This document shows positions 3,032 to 25,086 of a stretch of DNA of 38,148 nt, piece after piece. Position 1 is the first letter of the stretch, and every line of letters starts with the position of its first letter. A model generated the notes under the pieces. The model was not told the origin of the DNA, made no database searches, and was given only the letters and a program-made list of their open reading frames with translations. Source of the DNA: a virus; the IMG/VR virus record IMGVR_UViG_3300031227_003885, positions 1-38,148 of that record; one strand, written 5' to 3'. Made by a program: the position numbers and the translations under genes.

Positions 3032-4534
3032 TTAAACATTATTTCCAACACACTTATATATAATATTATTATTAACAAAACAACAACCTTTCATAACGTT
3101 TTTACAATCAACAATACCAATAACACCACTCTCTAACAACTTTTCAACATCAATACCAAAATATTCATCGTGATCTACAACAACAATTATAATATCAGAA
3201 AACTTCAAAACATCATCGATCATCCTTGTCACATTAATATTATTTTGCAACCCACCATTTTTCTTAGCATCTTCAAAATTAACATAAGAATCATGCACCA
3301 TTATATTATTACATCCCAGAGCAATTCCACGTTCAGCAATACAATAACACTTATTTAAAATTTCATTAATGATCATCTGTGTGGGTGTCTCTCTAAAATC
3401 TCCACTGTTTTTTATAAAAGAATACCCAAGAATACCTATTTTAACACCATTACTATCAAAACATTTACCATCATCTCTCTCATATAATTTACAAATGATA
3501 TTATCAACCTTATCAACAACAAACACGCACATATTATCATTAAATTCTCTAGCTTTTAAAAACATTGATTCATCACTATTTTTACAAACATACCCCCCAA
3601 CACCCTCTCCATTCAAAAGCAAATAAGTATCTTTAGTTAAACAATGACCACCAACACCTACACCGGGAAGCAATAAATTTCTTGCAATACCTTCTCCTTT
3701 TAAAGAGTTCACACCTTCTCTCACCTTATAAAAATCTGCACCGTGTAAATCACAAATTATAGCCAACTCATTCGCCATCGCTATCTGCACATCACGTATT
3801 GCATTCTCAGATGTTTTTGTGATCTCTGCTTCGGTTGATGTCATTGTTATAAATCTAAATTTGTCTCCCGATAATTTTTGATATAATCTTTCAGTAAGTA
3901 ATGTTGATGCATCTGATGCTCCACCAATAATACGTGGAAGAAGGGTTATGTTCTCGATAAGTTTTCCCACCATTACTCTTTCGGGAGCGTGAGCGAGGTA
4001 ATAGTCTATATCAAGATGTTTATTATGGTGGGATGTAATATAATTCGTGATGAAATTTGATGTGAATGTTGGAAAAACTGTTGATTCAATGATGATAAGT
4101 GGTTTCTCTTTTGAATGAGTGAAAATATTATCTACAATTGATAAAATGTTTTTGGTTTCCATCCGCTTTGTTCCACGAGAGACTGGTGTTTGAATGCAGA
4201 TAATAAATACATCTGATTCTTTCGTTTCTGACCAATCTGATGTAACTTTAAATTTCTTCTGTGCATAAATATTTCTAGATGTATAATATGGTTCTATTAA
4301 TTGTTTATCACATGTCTTTAAACTATTAAGAATTGTTTGAATATGTGGTTCATCTTTATCGAGTGGATTTTCATAATTATTCAACTTGTCAATTTTATTT
4401 TTTGACAATTGTGAATCTGATCTTTGAATACCAATAACAGATTCTATTTCTGAAGATTTAGCAAAAGAGAGAGCACATGGAACGCCAACATAACCCATGC
4501 CAATGACAGTTATATTTTTAAGGTTGTTAATCAT
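3032..4534 (-). CDS. UDP-N-acetyl-sugar 6-dehydrogenase (WecC/WbpA-like)
   Basis: 500 aa, longer than the usual 420-440 aa of the family. It is an NAD-dependent enzyme that oxidises C6 of a nucleotide sugar to a uronic acid. Visible are the Rossmann motif GMGYVG (12-17), the IIESTVFP stretch near 148-155, APERVMVGK near 183-191, the likely catalytic lysine in EITKTSENA (K240), and the catalytic cysteine in GVGVGGHCLTKD (C298). All key residues are present, so it should be active. The extra length comes partly from an insertion near residues 40-100. A TATA box is centred 27.5 nt upstream and there is no ribosome site, so its mRNA is probably leaderless. The likely pathway is UDP-GlcNAc or UDP-ManNAc uronic acid, acting with the Gfo/Idh and DegT genes at 11610-13877 in glycan synthesis. 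UDP-Glc dehydrogenase is less likely. Confidence 0.9.
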   Translation of the reverse strand: MINNLKNITVIGMGYVGVPCALSFAKSSEIESVIGIQRSDSQLSKNKIDKLNNYENPLDKDEPHIQTILNSLKTCDKQLIEPYYTSRNIYAQKKFKVTSDWSETKESDVFIICIQTPVSRGTKRMETKNILSIVDNIFTHSKEKPLIIIESTVFPTFTSNFITNYITSHHNKHLDIDYYLAHAPERVMVGKLIENITLLPRIIGGASDASTLLTERLYQKLSGDKFRFITMTSTEAEITKTSENAIRDVQIAMANELAIICDLHGADFYKVREGVNSLKGEGIARNLLLPGVGVGGHCLTKDTYLLLNGEGVGGYVCKNSDESMFLKAREFNDNMCVFVVDKVDNIICKLYERDDGKCFDSNGVKIGILGYSFIKNSGDFRETPTQMIINEILNKCYCIAERGIALGCNNIMVHDSYVNFEDAKKNGGLQNNINVTRMIDDVLKFSDIIIVVVDHDEYFGIDVEKLLESGVIGIVDCKNVMKGCCFVNNNIIYKCVGNNV

Positions 4535-6992: not shown

Positions 6993-7013
6993 AATAGTGC
7001 TTTTATATGTGAT

Positions 7014-7361
7014 TTAAATAAGCTTGCCCTCTTCAACAAGTTCATTAACAATTTTAATAGTTAACTTCAAATCCATATTCAAAGCATACGCAACATCAGA
7101 TGGATAATTTTCGACATTTTCTTTATAAAAATTTAAGATGGTTTCTTTCTGATCATTATAAATAAGATTTTCTGTAGTCTTTGTATATTTCTTAATTTGA
7201 TCTTTAGTAAAAACTTCATATATACATTTCCCACAATGAGGACATGTAATTGATCTATAAGAATGTGGTTTAGCCCCCCATGATTTGCCACACCAAGGAC
7301 ATACACACATTTCAAGACCAATTGTTTTCAAACCTTCTGTATAATATTCATTTTTTTTCAT
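7014..7361 (-). CDS. Zinc-ribbon plus winged-helix putative DNA-binding regulator
   Basis: 115 aa. The N-terminal zinc ribbon has CPWCGK and CPHCGK (about residues 20-45). The C-terminal ~50 aa (NYPSDVAYALNMDLKLTIKIV, then a short wing) read as a winged helix-turn-helix. A ribbon plus wHTH is a common archaeal regulator layout. GGTGA precedes the ATG at 7361 and overlaps the stop of the 55-aa gene upstream, so the two are translationally coupled. The C-terminus is nearly identical to that of the gene at 8607. Operator unknown. Confidence 0.75.
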   Translation of the reverse strand: MKKNEYYTEGLKTIGLEMCVCPWCGKSWGAKPHSYRSITCPHCGKCIYEVFTKDQIKKYTKTTENLIYNDQKETILNFYKENVENYPSDVAYALNMDLKLTIKIVNELVEEGKLI

Positions 7362-7369
7362 ATTTTATT

Positions 7370-7537
7370 TCACCAATAATCTGTTCCTCTTTCTTTATCT
7401 TTTCTAAGAACTTCACCAAACTTTTCAAAAAACTGTTTCTCCTTTTTTCTAAAATGTCTGTTTCCAATTCTCCTTACGCATGATGGAGAATGTCTGTACC
7501 AATCTTTATACTTTAACAATCGGTTTGTTCTTGACAT
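7370..7537 (-). CDS. Small basic protein, 55 aa (copy 1)
   Basis: A short gene of 55 codons beginning MSRTNRLLKYKDWYRHSPSC and ending GTDYW. It is rich in R and K and could bind nucleic acid. A second copy at 8890-9057 differs at only six residues (L8/T, D12/N, R22/K, T52/R, D53/E and few others), while the DNA differs at many silent sites. That pattern shows selection on this frame rather than on the overlapping frames. A TATA-like box is centred 29.5 nt upstream. Its TGA overlaps the GGTGA ribosome site of the next gene. Confidence 0.8.
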   Translation of the reverse strand: MSRTNRLLKYKDWYRHSPSCVRRIGNRHFRKKEKQFFEKFGEVLRKDKERGTDYW

Positions 7538-7562
7538 GACACATAGGTATTTGATTTATTCT

Positions 7563-7570
7563 GATATAAA
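7563..7570 (-). promoter_or_regulatory. TATA-like box of the 55-aa gene (copy 1)
   Basis: TTTATATC centred 29.5 nt before the ATG at 7537. The same sequence at the same distance precedes the second copy (9083-9090), so the promoter was duplicated and kept. Confidence 0.5.
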
Positions 7571-7582
7571 AGTTTTGATTTA

Positions 7583-8555: not shown

Positions 8556-8606
8556 ATATTTTCACACATATTTAATATGTATTTAATAGTATTTATTTTT
8601 TGTGAT

Positions 8607-8882
8607 TTAAATAAACTTACCTTCTTCAACAAGTTCATTAACAATTTTGATAGTTAACTTCAAATCCATATTCAAAACATACGCGACATCAGATGGGTAA
8701 TTTTCACCGCATTCTTCATAATGTTTCAAAACAATAGCTTTTTCATTATTATATTTAATTACCTTCATAATTTTAGTATACTTTTCAAGTTCTTCTTCTG
8801 TTATAACAACATCTCCACAACTATTATTACAATTCGATATTTCGTCTAGCACATTATAACAACATAAGCGCAATTTAGTCAT
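8607..8882 (-). CDS. Winged-helix protein, paralogue of the gene at 7014 with degenerate ribbon
   Basis: 91 aa from the ATG at 8882, which has GGTGAT 6 nt upstream. A longer TTG-started frame (8987) only re-reads the 55-aa gene in another frame and is rejected. The C-terminal ~48 residues match the wHTH at 7014 almost exactly (YPSDVAYVLNMDLKLTIKIV). The N-terminus keeps scattered cysteines (LRLCC, NCNNSCG) but not the paired CPxCG motifs, so the zinc ribbon looks degenerate. The conserved wHTH with a changed N-terminus suggests related DNA targets with different control. Confidence 0.7.
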   Translation of the reverse strand: MTKLRLCCYNVLDEISNCNNSCGDVVITEEELEKYTKIMKVIKYNNEKAIVLKHYEECGENYPSDVAYVLNMDLKLTIKIVNELVEEGKFI

Positions 8883-8889
8883 CTTTTTA

Positions 8890-9057
8890 TCACCAATATT
8901 CCCGCCCTCTTTCTTTATCTTTTCTAAGAACTTCGCCAAACTTTTCAAAAAATTGTTTTTCCTTTTTTCTAAAATGTCTGTTTCCAATTCTCTTTACGCA
9001 TGATGGAGAATGTCGGTACCAATTTTTATACTTTGTCAATCGGTTTGTTCTGGACAT
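8890..9057 (-). CDS. Small basic protein, 55 aa (copy 2)
   Basis: Second copy of the gene at 7370-7537, starting MSRTNRLTKYKNWYRHSPSC and ending GREYW. Length, neighbours and upstream TATA-like box (9083-9090, centred 29.5 nt away) are all preserved. The stop overlaps the ribosome site of the wHTH gene at 8882, as in copy 1. Basic and probably nucleic-acid binding; no family recognised. Confidence 0.8.
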   Translation of the reverse strand: MSRTNRLTKYKNWYRHSPSCVKRIGNRHFRKKEKQFFEKFGEVLRKDKERGREYW

Positions 9058-9082
9058 GACACACAGGTATTTGATTTATTTT

Positions 9083-9090
9083 GATATAAA
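9083..9090 (-). promoter_or_regulatory. TATA-like box of the 55-aa gene (copy 2)
   Basis: TTTATATC, identical in sequence and distance to the box at 7563-7570. Confidence 0.5.
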
Positions 9091-9252
9091 AGTTTTAATT
9101 TGTTTATTGATCAACTTTAATAAAATAGTTTAAATCCAAAACATATTTTTTATAATAATAAATGATATTAGATAGTTTTATATATTTATAAGTCTAATTA
9201 TAGTTAGTATAATATAACAATTATTAAAAGAAGAGGAACTATTACAAATGCA

Positions 9253-11609: not shown

Positions 11610-12629
11610 TTACCACTCAATTCCCAAATATGTACACAATTCACAAGACATATCATAATCATTTTGAAGTTGCATAAATACTTCTTTTTCCTTTTCTACT
11701 TCACCAATCTCCAGATACTTTTTCGCCAACTGTATTATATCCTTGAGTTCTAAATACAAAGATTCTTCGCCATTTATATTTTTTATTATTGTTTCATATT
11801 CTTCAGTGTAAATATTCCCATCATGAGAATATAGGTTGCCTTCTTTCTTAGATATGATTTCAATTTCGTGCGCAAGAAGGTTTGTAATATATGTTTTCTT
11901 TTCAGTTTCAATATATATTTGCCGAACTTTTTTCATAGCACCACGGCTCGTAGCTATATTTGACAAAAAGAATTTACCACCAATATAAACATCTATTAGA
12001 TAAACTGCGTGATCTTTACTTATGTTTTTACTAATATAACAAGTGTCATCGTAACTATCTATTTTAAACTTATTACACAATCCAACAACAATATAATTGA
12101 GAAGGTTTGCATCATGAATTGAAAGATCATATTCAATCGCACCACTTATTCTTTTTGATGCTGGATTAAATCTTTTAAATTCTACATATGTTGGAATATC
12201 ATCAATTACTTTAATTAACTCATTAACGGTTGGATTATATCTCTCTATATAACCACATTTAATATTCTTAATGCACTCTGGATATGTTCTTTTAAAATCT
12301 TTAAATTCACGCTCTTCCAAAAATAATGGCTTCTCTACAAGATAAAAATTTGATTTATCATAAAGTTCTAACATATTTTGATAATGATATTCTGATGGTG
12401 AACATACAGATATGAGGTTTGCTTTTGATCTTAAATCTTTTAAAGATGATGTTTGAATTATTTTATCTGAGATTGATTTTAAATATTCATCTGATTTGAA
12501 AATGGATCTGTTGATATCATAAACGTAGATGGATTTGATATCATCTTGCTTTAAATAATTTCGGATGTGATTCTTTCCCATAAAACCACAACCACATACG
12601 CCGGGAACAATTGAATTATATTGTGACAT
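11610..12629 (-). CDS. Gfo/Idh/MocA-family oxidoreductase (WlbA/WbpB-like)
   Basis: 339 aa, normal length. It has an N-terminal Rossmann domain with GVCGCGFMGKNH (10-21) and the family motif EKP at 99-101, which contributes the catalytic lysine; the C-terminal half is the beta-sheet substrate domain. In 3-amino-uronic-acid pathways such an enzyme oxidises C3 of UDP-GlcNAcA to the 3-keto sugar, which the DegT aminotransferase then aminates. The DegT gene lies directly upstream, 39 nt away. TTTAAATA is centred 27.5 nt before the ATG with no ribosome site, so this gene has its own leaderless promoter. The specific substrate is inferred from context. Confidence 0.85.
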   Translation of the reverse strand: MSQYNSIVPGVCGCGFMGKNHIRNYLKQDDIKSIYVYDINRSIFKSDEYLKSISDKIIQTSSLKDLRSKANLISVCSPSEYHYQNMLELYDKSNFYLVEKPLFLEEREFKDFKRTYPECIKNIKCGYIERYNPTVNELIKVIDDIPTYVEFKRFNPASKRISGAIEYDLSIHDANLLNYIVVGLCNKFKIDSYDDTCYISKNISKDHAVYLIDVYIGGKFFLSNIATSRGAMKKVRQIYIETEKKTYITNLLAHEIEIISKKEGNLYSHDGNIYTEEYETIIKNINGEESLYLELKDIIQLAKKYLEIGEVEKEKEVFMQLQNDYDMSCELCTYLGIEW

Positions 12630-12668: not shown

Positions 12669-13877
12669 TTATTTTTGTTCCCACAACTCATTCCCAAAAT
12701 AATAATCATATTCATTAATTTTAGATATAATATAATATAAATTATCCAAAGACAATGTGGGATGAACAGGAATACTTATAACAGTTTGAGATAGTTTTTG
12801 TGCATTTTTATAACAGTGATAAACATCAACACCAGTTTTATAATATTGTTCTAAACCATATTTAATATAATATTTTAGTAATGGAAGTGGTTCAGGATAA
12901 TAAATTTCAGATTGAATGCCACATGTATCAAGATAGTTTTTAAATTTAGAATTCAAAAATCTATCACCATTCTCTTTTATCCTAAGAGTGTATTGGTGAA
13001 ATACATGTTCATTACAAACAGTTGGTTTAATAAACATATCATTATTTATTTTTTCATCATAAATTGTTGCATGTGTATACCTAATACTATTCAAACAATC
13101 TAAAACATCAAGTTGTTGCATACCAATTACCGCATTAATCTCACACATACGATAATTATATCCAAAATACGGCTGGTTATATTTCATTGATTGTAAACTG
13201 CCACACACATTCGAATTATCAATACCATGATTTCTTAATTGCTTTATATATATTGCATCGTCTTCATCAGATAATACCATTCCTCCTTCACCAGTTGTCA
13301 TATTCTTCGTTGAATAGAATGAAAAGCACCCATAATCACCAATTGTTCCAACATGTTTATCACCAACTCTAAGACCAGCAGCTTGTGCACAATCTTCTAT
13401 TATATATAGTGTGGGAAACTCATTTTTTATTTTCTCGACATCAAAACAATTGCCATATAGATGAACACCAATGATAGCAACGACATTTAGATGTTCATTG
13501 TATTCCAACACTTCTTTAATTGTCTCCACTGTTATAAGACCATCATCGTCAACATCTGCAAATAAAGGTTTAAATCCCGCCATTAAGATAACATTGGCAG
13601 TTGCATTAAATGAGAATGAAGGTGCGATGATATAACAGTCATCAATTTCTCCTTTCAATTTTCTCTTAACACATTCACACGCAAGATGAAGTGCTGCCGT
13701 CCCACTGTTAACGGTGGAAGTACATTTCCTTCTACCAGTATATAAATCTAACCCACGCTCAAACCCCTTTACATATTTCCCCGTTGTTAGTTCGCCAGAT
13801 TCTATTATATTCAAGATTTTACCACCAATTTCAGATGTTAATTTTATGTGTGGATTTGCTATTTTAATGACGCTCAT
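12669..13877 (-). CDS. DegT/DnrJ/EryC1-family sugar aminotransferase (WlbC/WbpE-like)
   Basis: 402 aa, normal length. A PLP-dependent aminotransferase acting on keto-sugar nucleotides. The PLP lysine is K191 in FYSTKNMTTGEGG. Also visible are NSGTAALHLA (58-67), IAPSFSFNATANV (84-96), IIEDCAQAAG (159-168) and NYRMCEINAVIG. All core residues are intact. Together with the adjacent Gfo/Idh gene and the 6-dehydrogenase at 3032 it forms three consecutive steps toward UDP-2-acetamido-3-amino-uronic acid; an acetyltransferase step is not seen. TTATAA centred 26.5 nt upstream and no ribosome site point to a leaderless mRNA. Confidence 0.9.
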   Translation of the reverse strand: MSVIKIANPHIKLTSEIGGKILNIIESGELTTGKYVKGFERGLDLYTGRRKCTSTVNSGTAALHLACECVKRKLKGEIDDCYIIAPSFSFNATANVILMAGFKPLFADVDDDGLITVETIKEVLEYNEHLNVVAIIGVHLYGNCFDVEKIKNEFPTLYIIEDCAQAAGLRVGDKHVGTIGDYGCFSFYSTKNMTTGEGGMVLSDEDDAIYIKQLRNHGIDNSNVCGSLQSMKYNQPYFGYNYRMCEINAVIGMQQLDVLDCLNSIRYTHATIYDEKINNDMFIKPTVCNEHVFHQYTLRIKENGDRFLNSKFKNYLDTCGIQSEIYYPEPLPLLKYYIKYGLEQYYKTGVDVYHCYKNAQKLSQTVISIPVHPTLSLDNLYYIISKINEYDYYFGNELWEQK

Positions 13878-13900
13878 ATGTAAATATGCACACTATTACA

Positions 13901-13906
13901 TTATAA
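13901..13906 (-). promoter_or_regulatory. TATA box of the DegT gene
   Basis: TTATAA centred 26.5 nt before the ATG at 13877, at the edge of the gene-free region. Confidence 0.55.
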
Positions 13907-14188
13907 GCATATCGTTCATATCATTTCAATCACTTTTTGGTCCGTGATCGAGAAACGCAATTTCGGCATCATTTTGTATACAATATAGATATCCAAATAC
14001 GTATTGCGCTTAAAGCTCTTTTTTGGTAACACGTTTGTACATATTCGTGTTACTAAGTGCTACGAACGTGATATTCGAAAATCCACTATTTTAAATAATC
14101 GCTATATGGTCTTGAATCATAAATAACAATATTCTATGAGAATGAATCTGTAATTTAAAGCCCACACATCATTTGTTTAAAAAGCACC
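13907..14188. other. Intergenic region left of the inverted repeat, with a small palindrome
   Basis: No gene seen. It contains GTAACACG (14026-14033) and its inverse CGTGTTAC (14046-14053) around a 12-nt spacer, a perfect 8-bp dyad that could be a protein-binding site. Composition is less A+T-rich than the flanking genes. Confidence 0.5.
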
Positions 14189-14861
14189 CAAAATGCACGT
14201 TTTTGGCAAATCTATTTTTTCGAATATTTTTTGATCGAAAATCGGGCAAAGTTGTGCCACTTGGGGTAAATGGATAGTAATCAACGAATCCAGAAAGATA
14301 TCCTGAATGAATCAGGTTTTTACAACCATATTAGTGCTGTTTTTAACTCAATTTTATGGGCTTTAAAATGCCAAAAAGTGACTGTTTACCCCAACTGGAT
14401 CAAATGGCGCAAATGCCCGGTCATTTTCAAGAACTTTTTTTTGAATGTGTTTGAGTCATGAGATAGTTCATCATAAGTACACCTTGGCTTTTTTTTTTCC
14501 TGTACTCTTTACTACAGTAAAATAATATAAAAGGACCATAGGGAAGTAGTGGCACATAAAAAAAGCCAGCGCGCATATCCCAAGATCACGATCAAAAAAA
14601 AGTTCTTGAAAATGACCGGGCATTTGCGCCATTTGATCCAGTTGGGGTAAACGCTCACTTTTCAGCAAATTAAAGCCCGTAAAATTGAGCTGAAAACGAT
14701 ACCAAAATGACGCTATTTTTAAGTTCTACATGGAATATCTCTCTGGATTTGCCAATTACTATCCATTTACCCCAACTGGCACAACTTTGCCAATTTTTCG
14801 ATCAAAAAATACTCGAAAAAATAGATTCCCCGATTTCGTTCATTTTGATACACTTTTTATT
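14189..14861. repeat. Large imperfect inverted repeat with four copies of a 14-bp box
   Basis: The left arm (about 14189-14444) and right arm (about 14591-14861) are inverted copies around a ~146-bp centre. Outer and inner parts match closely and the middle is diverged. Each arm holds an inverted pair of the box CCAGTTGGGGTAAA, at 14257 (one mismatch), 14385, 14638 and 14766; the members of each pair start exactly 128 bp apart. The longest conserved block runs from GTTTACCCC (14384) to the T-tract near 14442 and its inverse at 14593-14652. No reading frame is convincing in either arm. Possible roles are a replication origin or hairpin, a non-autonomous transposon, or a regulator-binding region between divergent genes. 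Confidence 0.85.
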
Positions 14862-15000
14862 TTTGACCCAATTTTTGTGATATGTATATGAGACTGATTA
14901 CAATCATACGATAAAACTACAATAGTATATCATAATCAGAAAATATTAAGTTAAATAAATATTTTTTTACAATATTATACCTTTAACATTCATTACAGAA
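14862..15000. other. Short intergenic stretch before the PHP gene
   Basis: A+T-rich, no gene. It leads into the TATA box of the only plus-strand gene. Confidence 0.4.
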
Positions 15001-15008
15001 TATATAAA
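15001..15008 (+). promoter_or_regulatory. TATA box of the PHP gene
   Basis: TATATAAA centred 26.5 nt before the ATG at 15031, the same spacing as on the minus-strand leaderless genes. It supports 15031 as the start rather than the second ATG at 15043. Confidence 0.6.
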
Positions 15009-15030
15009 TATAATAAAGTTTATATGTTAT

Positions 15031-15663
15031 ATGTGTTTTATAATGCAACAAGTATTCGATAGTCACATTCATACAAAATATTCTAAAGATGCAGGAATGG
15101 AACCCTACAAACTGATGAAGCGTGCTAAGAAAGTTGGTTTAACATCTATAGCAATAACAGATCATAATCAAATTAAAGGTGCACTCGAAGCAAAAAAGTA
15201 TGAGAAAGAGTTTAACATCGAAGTGATTCCCGGTGTTGAAAGGAATACTGATATTGGTGATGTGATTGGGTTATTCATTAATGAAAGAATAAAGTCAAAG
15301 CAATTCTTAGATGTCGTAGATGAAATTAAAAATCTTGGTGGGTTAGTAGTTTTGCCACATCCATATAGAAGTCATTTTTTTAAACACATTGCTGAAGTAG
15401 AAGAGCATTTTGATTTTATAGAAGTATGGAATGCTCGCTCATCACCTAAACAAAATAAAATGTTTGAAAAACATATTATGGATTTTCATGAATTAAAAAC
15501 AATAACGATGGGGAGTGATTCTCATTTTTACAATGAACTTGGTAATGTAAAAATAAAGTTTGAAACAGACATAGATAATTTTGCTTTTGTAGATGCTATT
15601 GAATTGACATATAGTAAAAAATATAATATTCTTAGATCGATATTCAAAAGTTTTAAAAATTAA
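15031..15663 (+). CDS. PHP-domain metal-dependent phosphoesterase
   Basis: 210 aa and the only convincing plus-strand gene. The PHP motifs are all present: DSHIHTKYS (I), ITDHNQI (II), PGVERN (the acidic ligand), LPHPYR (III) and MGSDSH (IV). These bind two or three metal ions and hydrolyse phosphoesters; stand-alone PHP proteins of this size include nucleases and nucleotide or histidinol-type phosphatases. The start at 15031 fits a leaderless promoter. Its 3' end meets the convergent RNase H gene only 4 bp away. Substrate unknown. The neighbouring repair genes hint at nucleic-acid metabolism. Confidence 0.88.
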   Translation: MCFIMQQVFDSHIHTKYSKDAGMEPYKLMKRAKKVGLTSIAITDHNQIKGALEAKKYEKEFNIEVIPGVERNTDIGDVIGLFINERIKSKQFLDVVDEIKNLGGLVVLPHPYRSHFFKHIAEVEEHFDFIEVWNARSSPKQNKMFEKHIMDFHELKTITMGSDSHFYNELGNVKIKFETDIDNFAFVDAIELTYSKKYNILRSIFKSFKN

Positions 15664-23936: not shown

Positions 23937-24065
23937 TTAATCGTCAAACATTTCATCGTCTGAAGGGTCTGCCACATTTTCAACTGGTCTTTTGTAAACC
24001 ATTTTTTCAATGTTCTTTACCAATGTTTCTGGATTGATTAGCAACCCATTAAGATCAAATCTCAT
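23937..24065 (-). CDS. Short protein with MxLN...VKNIE motif, 42 aa
   Basis: Starts MRFDLNGLLINPETLVKNIE and ends DDEMFDD. The start is repeated exactly in the chimeric gene at 24317. Its left end marks the left edge of the 479-bp tandem duplication, so this is the original, unfused version of that N-terminus. Confidence 0.6.
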   Translation of the reverse strand: MRFDLNGLLINPETLVKNIEKMVYKRPVENVADPSDDEMFDD

Positions 24066-24071
24066 TTCACA

Positions 24072-24311
24072 TCACTCAATAATAATAGTTTCAGTTCCTT
24101 CTTCTTCACACTCTGAATCATACTCTGGTTTCACATCATATGATTCGACAACAGGTTCAGGCTCTTCTACAACAATTGGTTTGGGTTCTACGACTTCTAC
24201 AACTTCTACAGGCTCTTCAATGATTTCAGCTTTTTTGCAGCTAAGCATATTCTCAATGTTCTTTACATACTTATCTGGATTAATTAATAGATTTTCAACA
24301 TTTAGTTTCAT
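24072..24311 (-). CDS. Acidic MKLN...VKNIE protein (duplicate 1)
   Basis: 79 aa from the ATG at 24311 with GTGAT 4 nt upstream; the GTG start at 24320 is rejected. N-terminus MKLNVENLLINPDKYVKNIE, then a long acidic, low-complexity tail of alternating V, E and P (VEVVEVVEPKP and similar). The tail is likely disordered. Identical to the copy at 24551. Confidence 0.65.
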   Translation of the reverse strand: MKLNVENLLINPDKYVKNIENMLSCKKAEIIEEPVEVVEVVEPKPIVVEEPEPVVESYDVKPEYDSECEEEGTETIIIE

Positions 24312-24316
24312 TTGTA

Positions 24317-24544
24317 TCACTTCTTTATTTGTTTGTAATTGTTTATAATACTTTTCAACACTTTACGTCTTTCATCAGCTTCGATTGTTTCAAAACTATC
24401 ATGTGCAACTTTTAAGCAATCGTCAAACATTTCATCGTCTGAAGGGTCTGCCACATTTTCAACTGGTCTTTTGTAAACCATTTTTTCAATGTTCTTTACC
24501 AATGTTTCTGGATTGATTAGCAACCCATTAAGATCAAATCTCAT
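24317..24544 (-). CDS. Chimeric protein made by the duplication
   Basis: 75 aa. The first 42 residues equal the protein at 23937 and the remaining 33 (CLKVAHDSFETIEADERRKV and on) equal the C-terminus of the protein at 24796. The junction falls at the AATC point of the 479-bp duplication, so the frame arose by the duplication itself. Whether it is made or functional is unknown. Confidence 0.7.
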   Translation of the reverse strand: MRFDLNGLLINPETLVKNIEKMVYKRPVENVADPSDDEMFDDCLKVAHDSFETIEADERRKVLKSIINNYKQIKK

Positions 24545-24550
24545 TTCACA

Positions 24551-24790
24551 TCACTCAATAATAATAGTTTCAGTTCCTTCTTCTTCACACTCTGAATCAT
24601 ACTCTGGTTTCACATCATATGATTCGACAACAGGTTCAGGCTCTTCTACAACAATTGGTTTGGGTTCTACGACTTCTACAACTTCTACAGGCTCTTCAAT
24701 GATTTCAGCTTTTTTGCAGCTAAGCATATTCTCAATGTTCTTTACATACTTATCTGGATTAATTAATAGATTTTCAACATTTAGTTTCAT
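24551..24790 (-). CDS. Acidic MKLN...VKNIE protein (duplicate 2)
   Basis: 79 aa, identical to the protein at 24072, including the GTGAT ribosome site. Begins MKLNVENLLINPDKYVKNIE. Gene dosage may have doubled through the tandem duplication. Confidence 0.65.
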   Translation of the reverse strand: MKLNVENLLINPDKYVKNIENMLSCKKAEIIEEPVEVVEVVEPKPIVVEEPEPVVESYDVKPEYDSECEEEGTETIIIE

Positions 24791-24795
24791 TTGTA

Positions 24796-25086
24796 TCACT
24801 TCTTTATTTGTTTGTAATTGTTTATAATACTTTTCAACACTTTACGTCTTTCATCAGCTTCGATTGTTTCAAAACTATCATGTGCAACTTTTAAGCAATC
24901 TTCAATTTCATTTATAATACACGCATCTTTGTATAATTGGAATGGACACGTATAACCATCTTTGCGCTCACAATTATTATCACATACATCATTTACTATA
25001 CATGCGTTGTTGATTTGTTCTACGAGTTCAGAAATTTTTTCAAGTCTGTCTACAATATATTTATCGGAGAATTGTTTATTTTCCAT
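24796..25086 (-). CDS. Cys-rich module protein, 96 aa
   Basis: ATG at 25086 with GTGAT 5 nt upstream. A helical start, then the cysteine module CIVNDVCDNNCERKDGYTC PFQ...DAC: the C..xxxCxxxC..xxxxTCPFQ.....C pattern shared with the next gene. The C-terminal helix (CLKVAHDSFETIEADERR) was copied into the chimera at 24317. Likely metal-binding; function unknown. Confidence 0.65.
   Translation of the reverse strand: MENKQFSDKYIVDRLEKISELVEQINNACIVNDVCDNNCERKDGYTCPFQLYKDACIINEIEDCLKVAHDSFETIEADERRKVLKSIINNYKQIKK

Follow-up and report, generated by a model that had tools for sequence, protein, structure and literature searches.

The sequence studied is a viral DNA of 38,148 nucleotides (IMG/VR record IMGVR_UViG_3300031227_003885), and the whole of this stretch is referred to here as the window. 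Its largest gap, if chance open reading frames (ORFs) on the repeat described below are discounted, separates two divergent genes, and no credible ORF was found within it; the second-largest gap of the window is 360 bp. The gap contains a nested inverted repeat, in which each of two arms carries a pair of 14-bp boxes. The features are as follows.

12669–13877, minus strand: flanking gene, DegT/DnrJ/EryC1 aminotransferase (PF01041, E 2e-79)
13878–15030, no strand: intergenic region between the divergent genes, 1153 bp
14189–14449, plus strand: left arm of the inverted repeat, 261 bp
14209–14281, no strand: outer conserved block (mirror 14755–14827), box 1 and its flanks, with identical runs of 15, 17, 15 and 21 bases
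14257–14270, plus strand: box 1, CCACTTGGGGTAAA, one mismatch
14282–14383, no strand: diverged inter-box part of the arm, of equal length in both arms
14384–14444, no strand: perfectly identical block of 61 bp (mirror 14592–14652), box 2 and its centre-facing flank; the longest identical run
14385–14398, minus strand: box 2, CCAGTTGGGGTAAA, starting 128 bp past box 1
14450–14586, no strand: centre between the arms, 137 bp
14587–14847, minus strand: right arm of the inverted repeat, 261 bp
14638–14651, plus strand: box 3, CCAGTTGGGGTAAA
14766–14779, minus strand: box 4, CCAGTTGGGGTAAA, starting 128 bp past box 3
15031–15663, plus strand: flanking gene, PHP-domain protein (PF02811, E 1e-12)

The repeat is upstream of both flanking genes. 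A first-pass annotation of this DNA had placed it between the minus-strand block and the only plus-strand gene. It does lie between the minus-strand gene 12669–13877 and the plus-strand gene 15031–15663, but the minus-strand block resumes past the latter. The segment adjoining the repeat, 14848–15030, has a GC content of 18%, and the window has further stretches just as rich in AT. As read from the sequence, the centre holds a GGCTTTTTTT/AAAAAAAGCC pair, which is out of the arm register, and a TTTACT/AGTAAA dyad; a degraded extension of the arms with one indel reaches to about 14176–14861; and more short inverted repeats, such as GTAACACG/CGTGTTAC and CGCAAT/ATTGCG, occur at 13970–14060 in the same intergenic region.

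The left arm and the reverse complement of 14587–14847 are identical at 209 of 261 positions in a single register with no indels, and the 52 mismatches amount to 20% of positions. Cross-axis identity at 14450–14499 is 28%, indicating that the centre is not part of the arms. Arms and centre together span 659 bp. Thus, the earlier description of two inverted arms facing each other across a centre holds, but its sizes (about 255 and 146 bp) are corrected to 261 and 137 bp, and the term kilobase-scale was an overstatement. This is by far the longest inverted pair of the window (the runner-up has 37 nt at 73%), and folding of the repeat as single-stranded DNA gave a z of −25. In 133 other loci compared (1.3 Mb), no inverted pair of at least 80 bp within 3 kb was found at E 1e-10. 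A comparable nearby inverted repeat is also absent from ANMV-1 and from the examined stretches of vir525 and MetMV.

The boxes form two inward-facing pairs, one in each arm, and the reported 128-bp offset of their starts is exact in both arms (14257/14385 and 14638/14766). The four boxes had been called identical; three of them are CCAGTTGGGGTAAA, but the one at 14257–14270 is CCACTTGGGGTAAA, with one mismatch. A search for the box elsewhere in the virus genome, which the first-pass annotation had proposed, found no further copy at up to two mismatches in the 38,148-base window, suggesting one site and not a regulon. When the halves of an arm (Q1 and Q2) were compared, the box was the only significant similarity, and the flanks upstream and downstream of it were no better than shuffles. 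A deeper duplication inside the arm was rejected because the two halves have only the box in common. The boxes are therefore not just what is left of a longer internal duplication, and this speaks for viewing them as putative sites.

Identity between the arms is mosaic. None of 20,000 shuffles of the 52 mismatches gave an identical run as long as the 61-bp one, and the outer block at about 14209–14281 is near 90% identical. The earlier remark that some blocks are nearly identical while others have diverged is correct. These conserved outer blocks surround an arm middle at about 60% identity. Inter-box identity is 57% at 14271–14326 and 76% at 14327–14384, with no indels and with the length kept to the base, and thus the 128-bp spacing has been preserved. 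The suggestion that selected sites sit in an older duplication agrees with three observations: the box is the sole significant similarity within an arm, the outer blocks are conserved, and the spacing is free of indels.

A coding function was rejected, since none of the reading frames stays open in both arms and the mismatches are even over the codon positions (16, 19, and 17). The repeat matched no Rfam family, and G-U-type arm mismatches number 12 and 17 on the two strands, with no lean to wobble on either. Given these two negative results and a location upstream of each flanking gene, a terminator or RNA hairpin is unlikely, and the DNA itself, not a folded transcript, appears to be the relevant form. 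A chimera from multiple displacement amplification (MDA) or assembly is unlikely, because the arms have diverged in a mosaic of 52 mismatches that does not resemble an amplification copy. Both circumstances that the first-pass annotation had named as arguing against its reading are thus answered: arms that differ this much are not an amplification chimera, and no scattered copies were found in the following searches.

We scanned 2.9 million viral contigs (IMG/VR) and 84,980 species genomes for the box pair, as an exact pattern at a spacing of 100–130 bp, a scan that very diverged copies could escape. No homologous box pair was present in either set. By inspection, the matches lacked arm homology or were in coding DNA, and those in genomes were chance matches that had nothing in common with the arms. 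No outward-facing box pair was found in the viral contigs, and blastn against phage and plasmid collections gave no homologue. The single box has more than 100 exact matches in the viral contigs. By our own estimate, a 14-base sequence would turn up roughly this often by chance in a collection of that size, and no match comes with a convincing partner. The left arm had no match in 194 Thermoplasmatota, in 300 genomes of the phylum of a Bathyarchaeota MAG, or in 196 genomes of the phylum of a Micrarchaeota MAG. No close virus relatives were found via the SNF2, DegT, SprT-like, or PHP proteins. The most promising of the genome matches has a box pair of the same 134-bp extent upstream of a dnaA-like gene, and we consider it a coincidence: the pair is present in none of 10 family relatives, which conserve the inter-box DNA. 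Another candidate locus was rejected because it has only an 11-bp match to the repeat, in an apparently coding stretch. Since the viral contigs, species genomes, phages, and plasmids contain no homologue, the repeat is unlikely to be a common MITE. The nested inverted repeat is real, unusual, and an orphan.

Two other arrangements were seen during this work. In Ruminococcaceae YAD3003, four loci on several contigs have arrays of alternating TTTACCCCAA/TTGGGGTAAA units, about 40 bp apart; the units are palindromic and appear unrelated to the window. In Bacillus massilionigeriensis, two inverse copies of a 128-bp element, bounded by TTGGGGTAAA and with an internal palindrome, are about 1.2 kb apart by locus coordinates.

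The window also encodes a diversity-generating retroelement, with the reverse transcriptase at 1294–2370 and a secreted target protein at 3–1232, both on the minus strand. Its repeat pair is at 1–56, where it is cut by the contig end, and at 2596–2651 (82% identity), and the contig breaks off within what is presumably the variable region. For the reverse transcriptase, the top match (47%) is Caudoviricetes vir525 from Methanosarcinales; Methanosarcina virus MetMV gives a weak match to the target protein, and GGTGA-type ribosome-binding sites precede several genes. From these observations, the host is likely to be a methanogen- or ANME-type archaeon.

We tentatively favour, as possible rather than probable, that the repeat acts in cis as a DNA site bound by a protein, in an archaeal virus of the methanogen or ANME type; its likeliest role would be that of a replication origin or a partition-like site. 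The protein, encoded by the virus or by its host, would occupy the boxes in two pairs that face each other, the arms would set these pairs symmetrically around the 137-bp core, and the bound complex might open the DNA in the core or in the adjoining AT-rich stretch 14848–15030. This is consistent with the retention of the boxes while the inter-box DNA has gone down to about 60% identity without an indel, and with a location that is upstream of both divergent genes, within the window's longest non-coding stretch, and beside an AT-rich neighbour. Against it, no relative was found that would show conservation between viruses, and the 61-bp identical block adjoins the centre, which is also expected from gene conversion or template switching. 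The role as a replication origin is the least certain step. An origin had been among the earlier suggestions; the anatomy is compatible with one, but GC skew has no sign change at the repeat, and no initiator gene (Orc1/Cdc6 or Rep) was recognised in Pfam or PHROGs scans of most of the larger ORFs. Nearly all genes of the window point one way, and the record may be a fragment. The more specific claim, that an archaeal virus of the methanogen or ANME type here uses a novel kind of replication origin or partition site, with two mirror-image 261-bp modules whose face-to-face 14-bp initiator boxes, 128 bp apart, serve an as yet unrecognised initiator, is in our judgement unlikely. A hairpin for resolution, also proposed before, is conceivable, but the families searched yielded no recognisable recombinase.

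The boxes might instead be the terminal inverted repeats of a MITE or fold-back, a transposon-like element that is non-autonomous and has decayed. This would be either a unit that was inserted and then inversely duplicated or two insertion-sequence ends lying head to head. Such elements usually show long inverted repeats in intergenic DNA, and the short common tip followed by unrelated subterminal sequence resembles left and right insertion-sequence ends. However, there is no second copy in the window, only the two arms, and the box pair is without a homologue in the 84,980 species genomes, in IMG/VR, or in the phage and plasmid collections. Moreover, at nine candidate boundaries no flanking direct repeat is above chance (the longest exact one has 4 nt, within the null), and the supposed interior has diverged, with conservation seen outside the boxes instead. 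The label transposon-derived, which the first-pass annotation also offered, therefore describes something conceivable but somewhat unlikely, having neither a target-site duplication above chance nor a second copy in any collection searched. Such an element would be of little importance.

The arms might also come from a neutral inverted duplication by fork stalling and template switching, with later switching across the centre re-copying parts of one arm onto the other to give the mosaic identity. Quasi-palindrome correction would act close to the centre, and it is there that the perfect 61-bp block lies; the virus also has other recent duplications (a 479-bp tandem copy; 7003–7581 and 8596–9101). 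Left unexplained by this process are the 14-bp inverted pair in each arm with its unrelated flanks and equal spacing, and the second conserved block on the outer side, beyond the middle at about 60%; we regard it as distinctly unlikely. Finally, the repeat could be an upstream operator of the divergent DegT and PHP genes between which it lies, where a regulator on box pairs 128 bp apart would control both promoters by DNA looping. Reading the sequence, we noted a promoter-like site at 13929–13900 before DegT and a TATA-like stretch before the PHP gene. The promoter scan, however, gave 6 sites compared with 7.2 in shuffles, which is no excess, the boxes are missing from all other promoters of the window, and at about 250–520 bp from the nearer gene start they are far away for an operator. 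An operator is thus very doubtful.

If the repeat is a protein-bound origin, as we tentatively favour, known systems offer partial parallels. Archaeal origins with inverted origin recognition boxes (ORB), the Orc1/Cdc6 origins, have been reviewed (PMC4010727), and like the repeat they have short conserved boxes with G runs, in inverted pairs, in non-coding DNA with adjacent AT-rich DNA. The window has this arrangement in its two inward-facing box pairs 128 bp apart, in non-coding DNA beside the 18%-GC segment 14848–15030. Unlike at ORB origins, no cdc6/orc1 was recognised in the window, the repeat is flanked by DegT and PHP genes, and its arms, at 261 bp, have a much greater length. The 14-bp box also does not appear to match the published ORB consensus. 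Archaeal viruses with Rep-Arvir, such as SNJ2, have origins with a hairpin and inverted repeats of tens of bp at most beside the rep gene (PMC13107129), and the repeat resembles these as an intergenic inverted repeat or hairpin in an archaeal virus. In contrast to them, its arms are 261 bp long and no Rep gene was recognised. Since no initiator was recognised and GC skew is silent, we did not assign the repeat to either the archaeal ORB origins or the hairpin origins of archaeal viruses. Herpesvirus oriL/oriS and the dyad symmetry of EBV oriP combine a palindrome and inverted initiator sites between divergent genes. The analogy is one of layout only, as the viruses, initiators, and box sequences are unrelated. 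Bacterial and archaeal MITEs and small non-autonomous elements (e.g. PMC2229807) are likewise non-coding and inverted with short identical ends, but for the repeat no other copies or target-site duplication were detected. Little is known about the replication origins of viruses that infect methanogens and methane-oxidising archaea. Should the repeat be such an origin, it would provide a defined 0.7-kb fragment for autonomous-replication testing and a bait for the initiator.

Other features of the window concern its duplications and gene content. At 23939–24905 there is a 479-bp tandem duplication with 99% identity, within which an 82-aa minus-strand ORF with acidic repeats occurs twice in identical form; this could be a recent event or an assembly effect. 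The segments 7003–7581 and 8596–9101 are diverged direct duplications (82–91%) that encode two small related proteins (115 and 126 aa) whose C-terminal halves resemble each other. Nucleotide-sugar genes are found at 3032–4534, 11610–12629, and 12669–13877 (UDP-glucose/GDP-mannose dehydrogenase, Gfo/Idh oxidoreductase, and DegT aminotransferase, respectively), which suggests that the virus may remodel a surface glycan.
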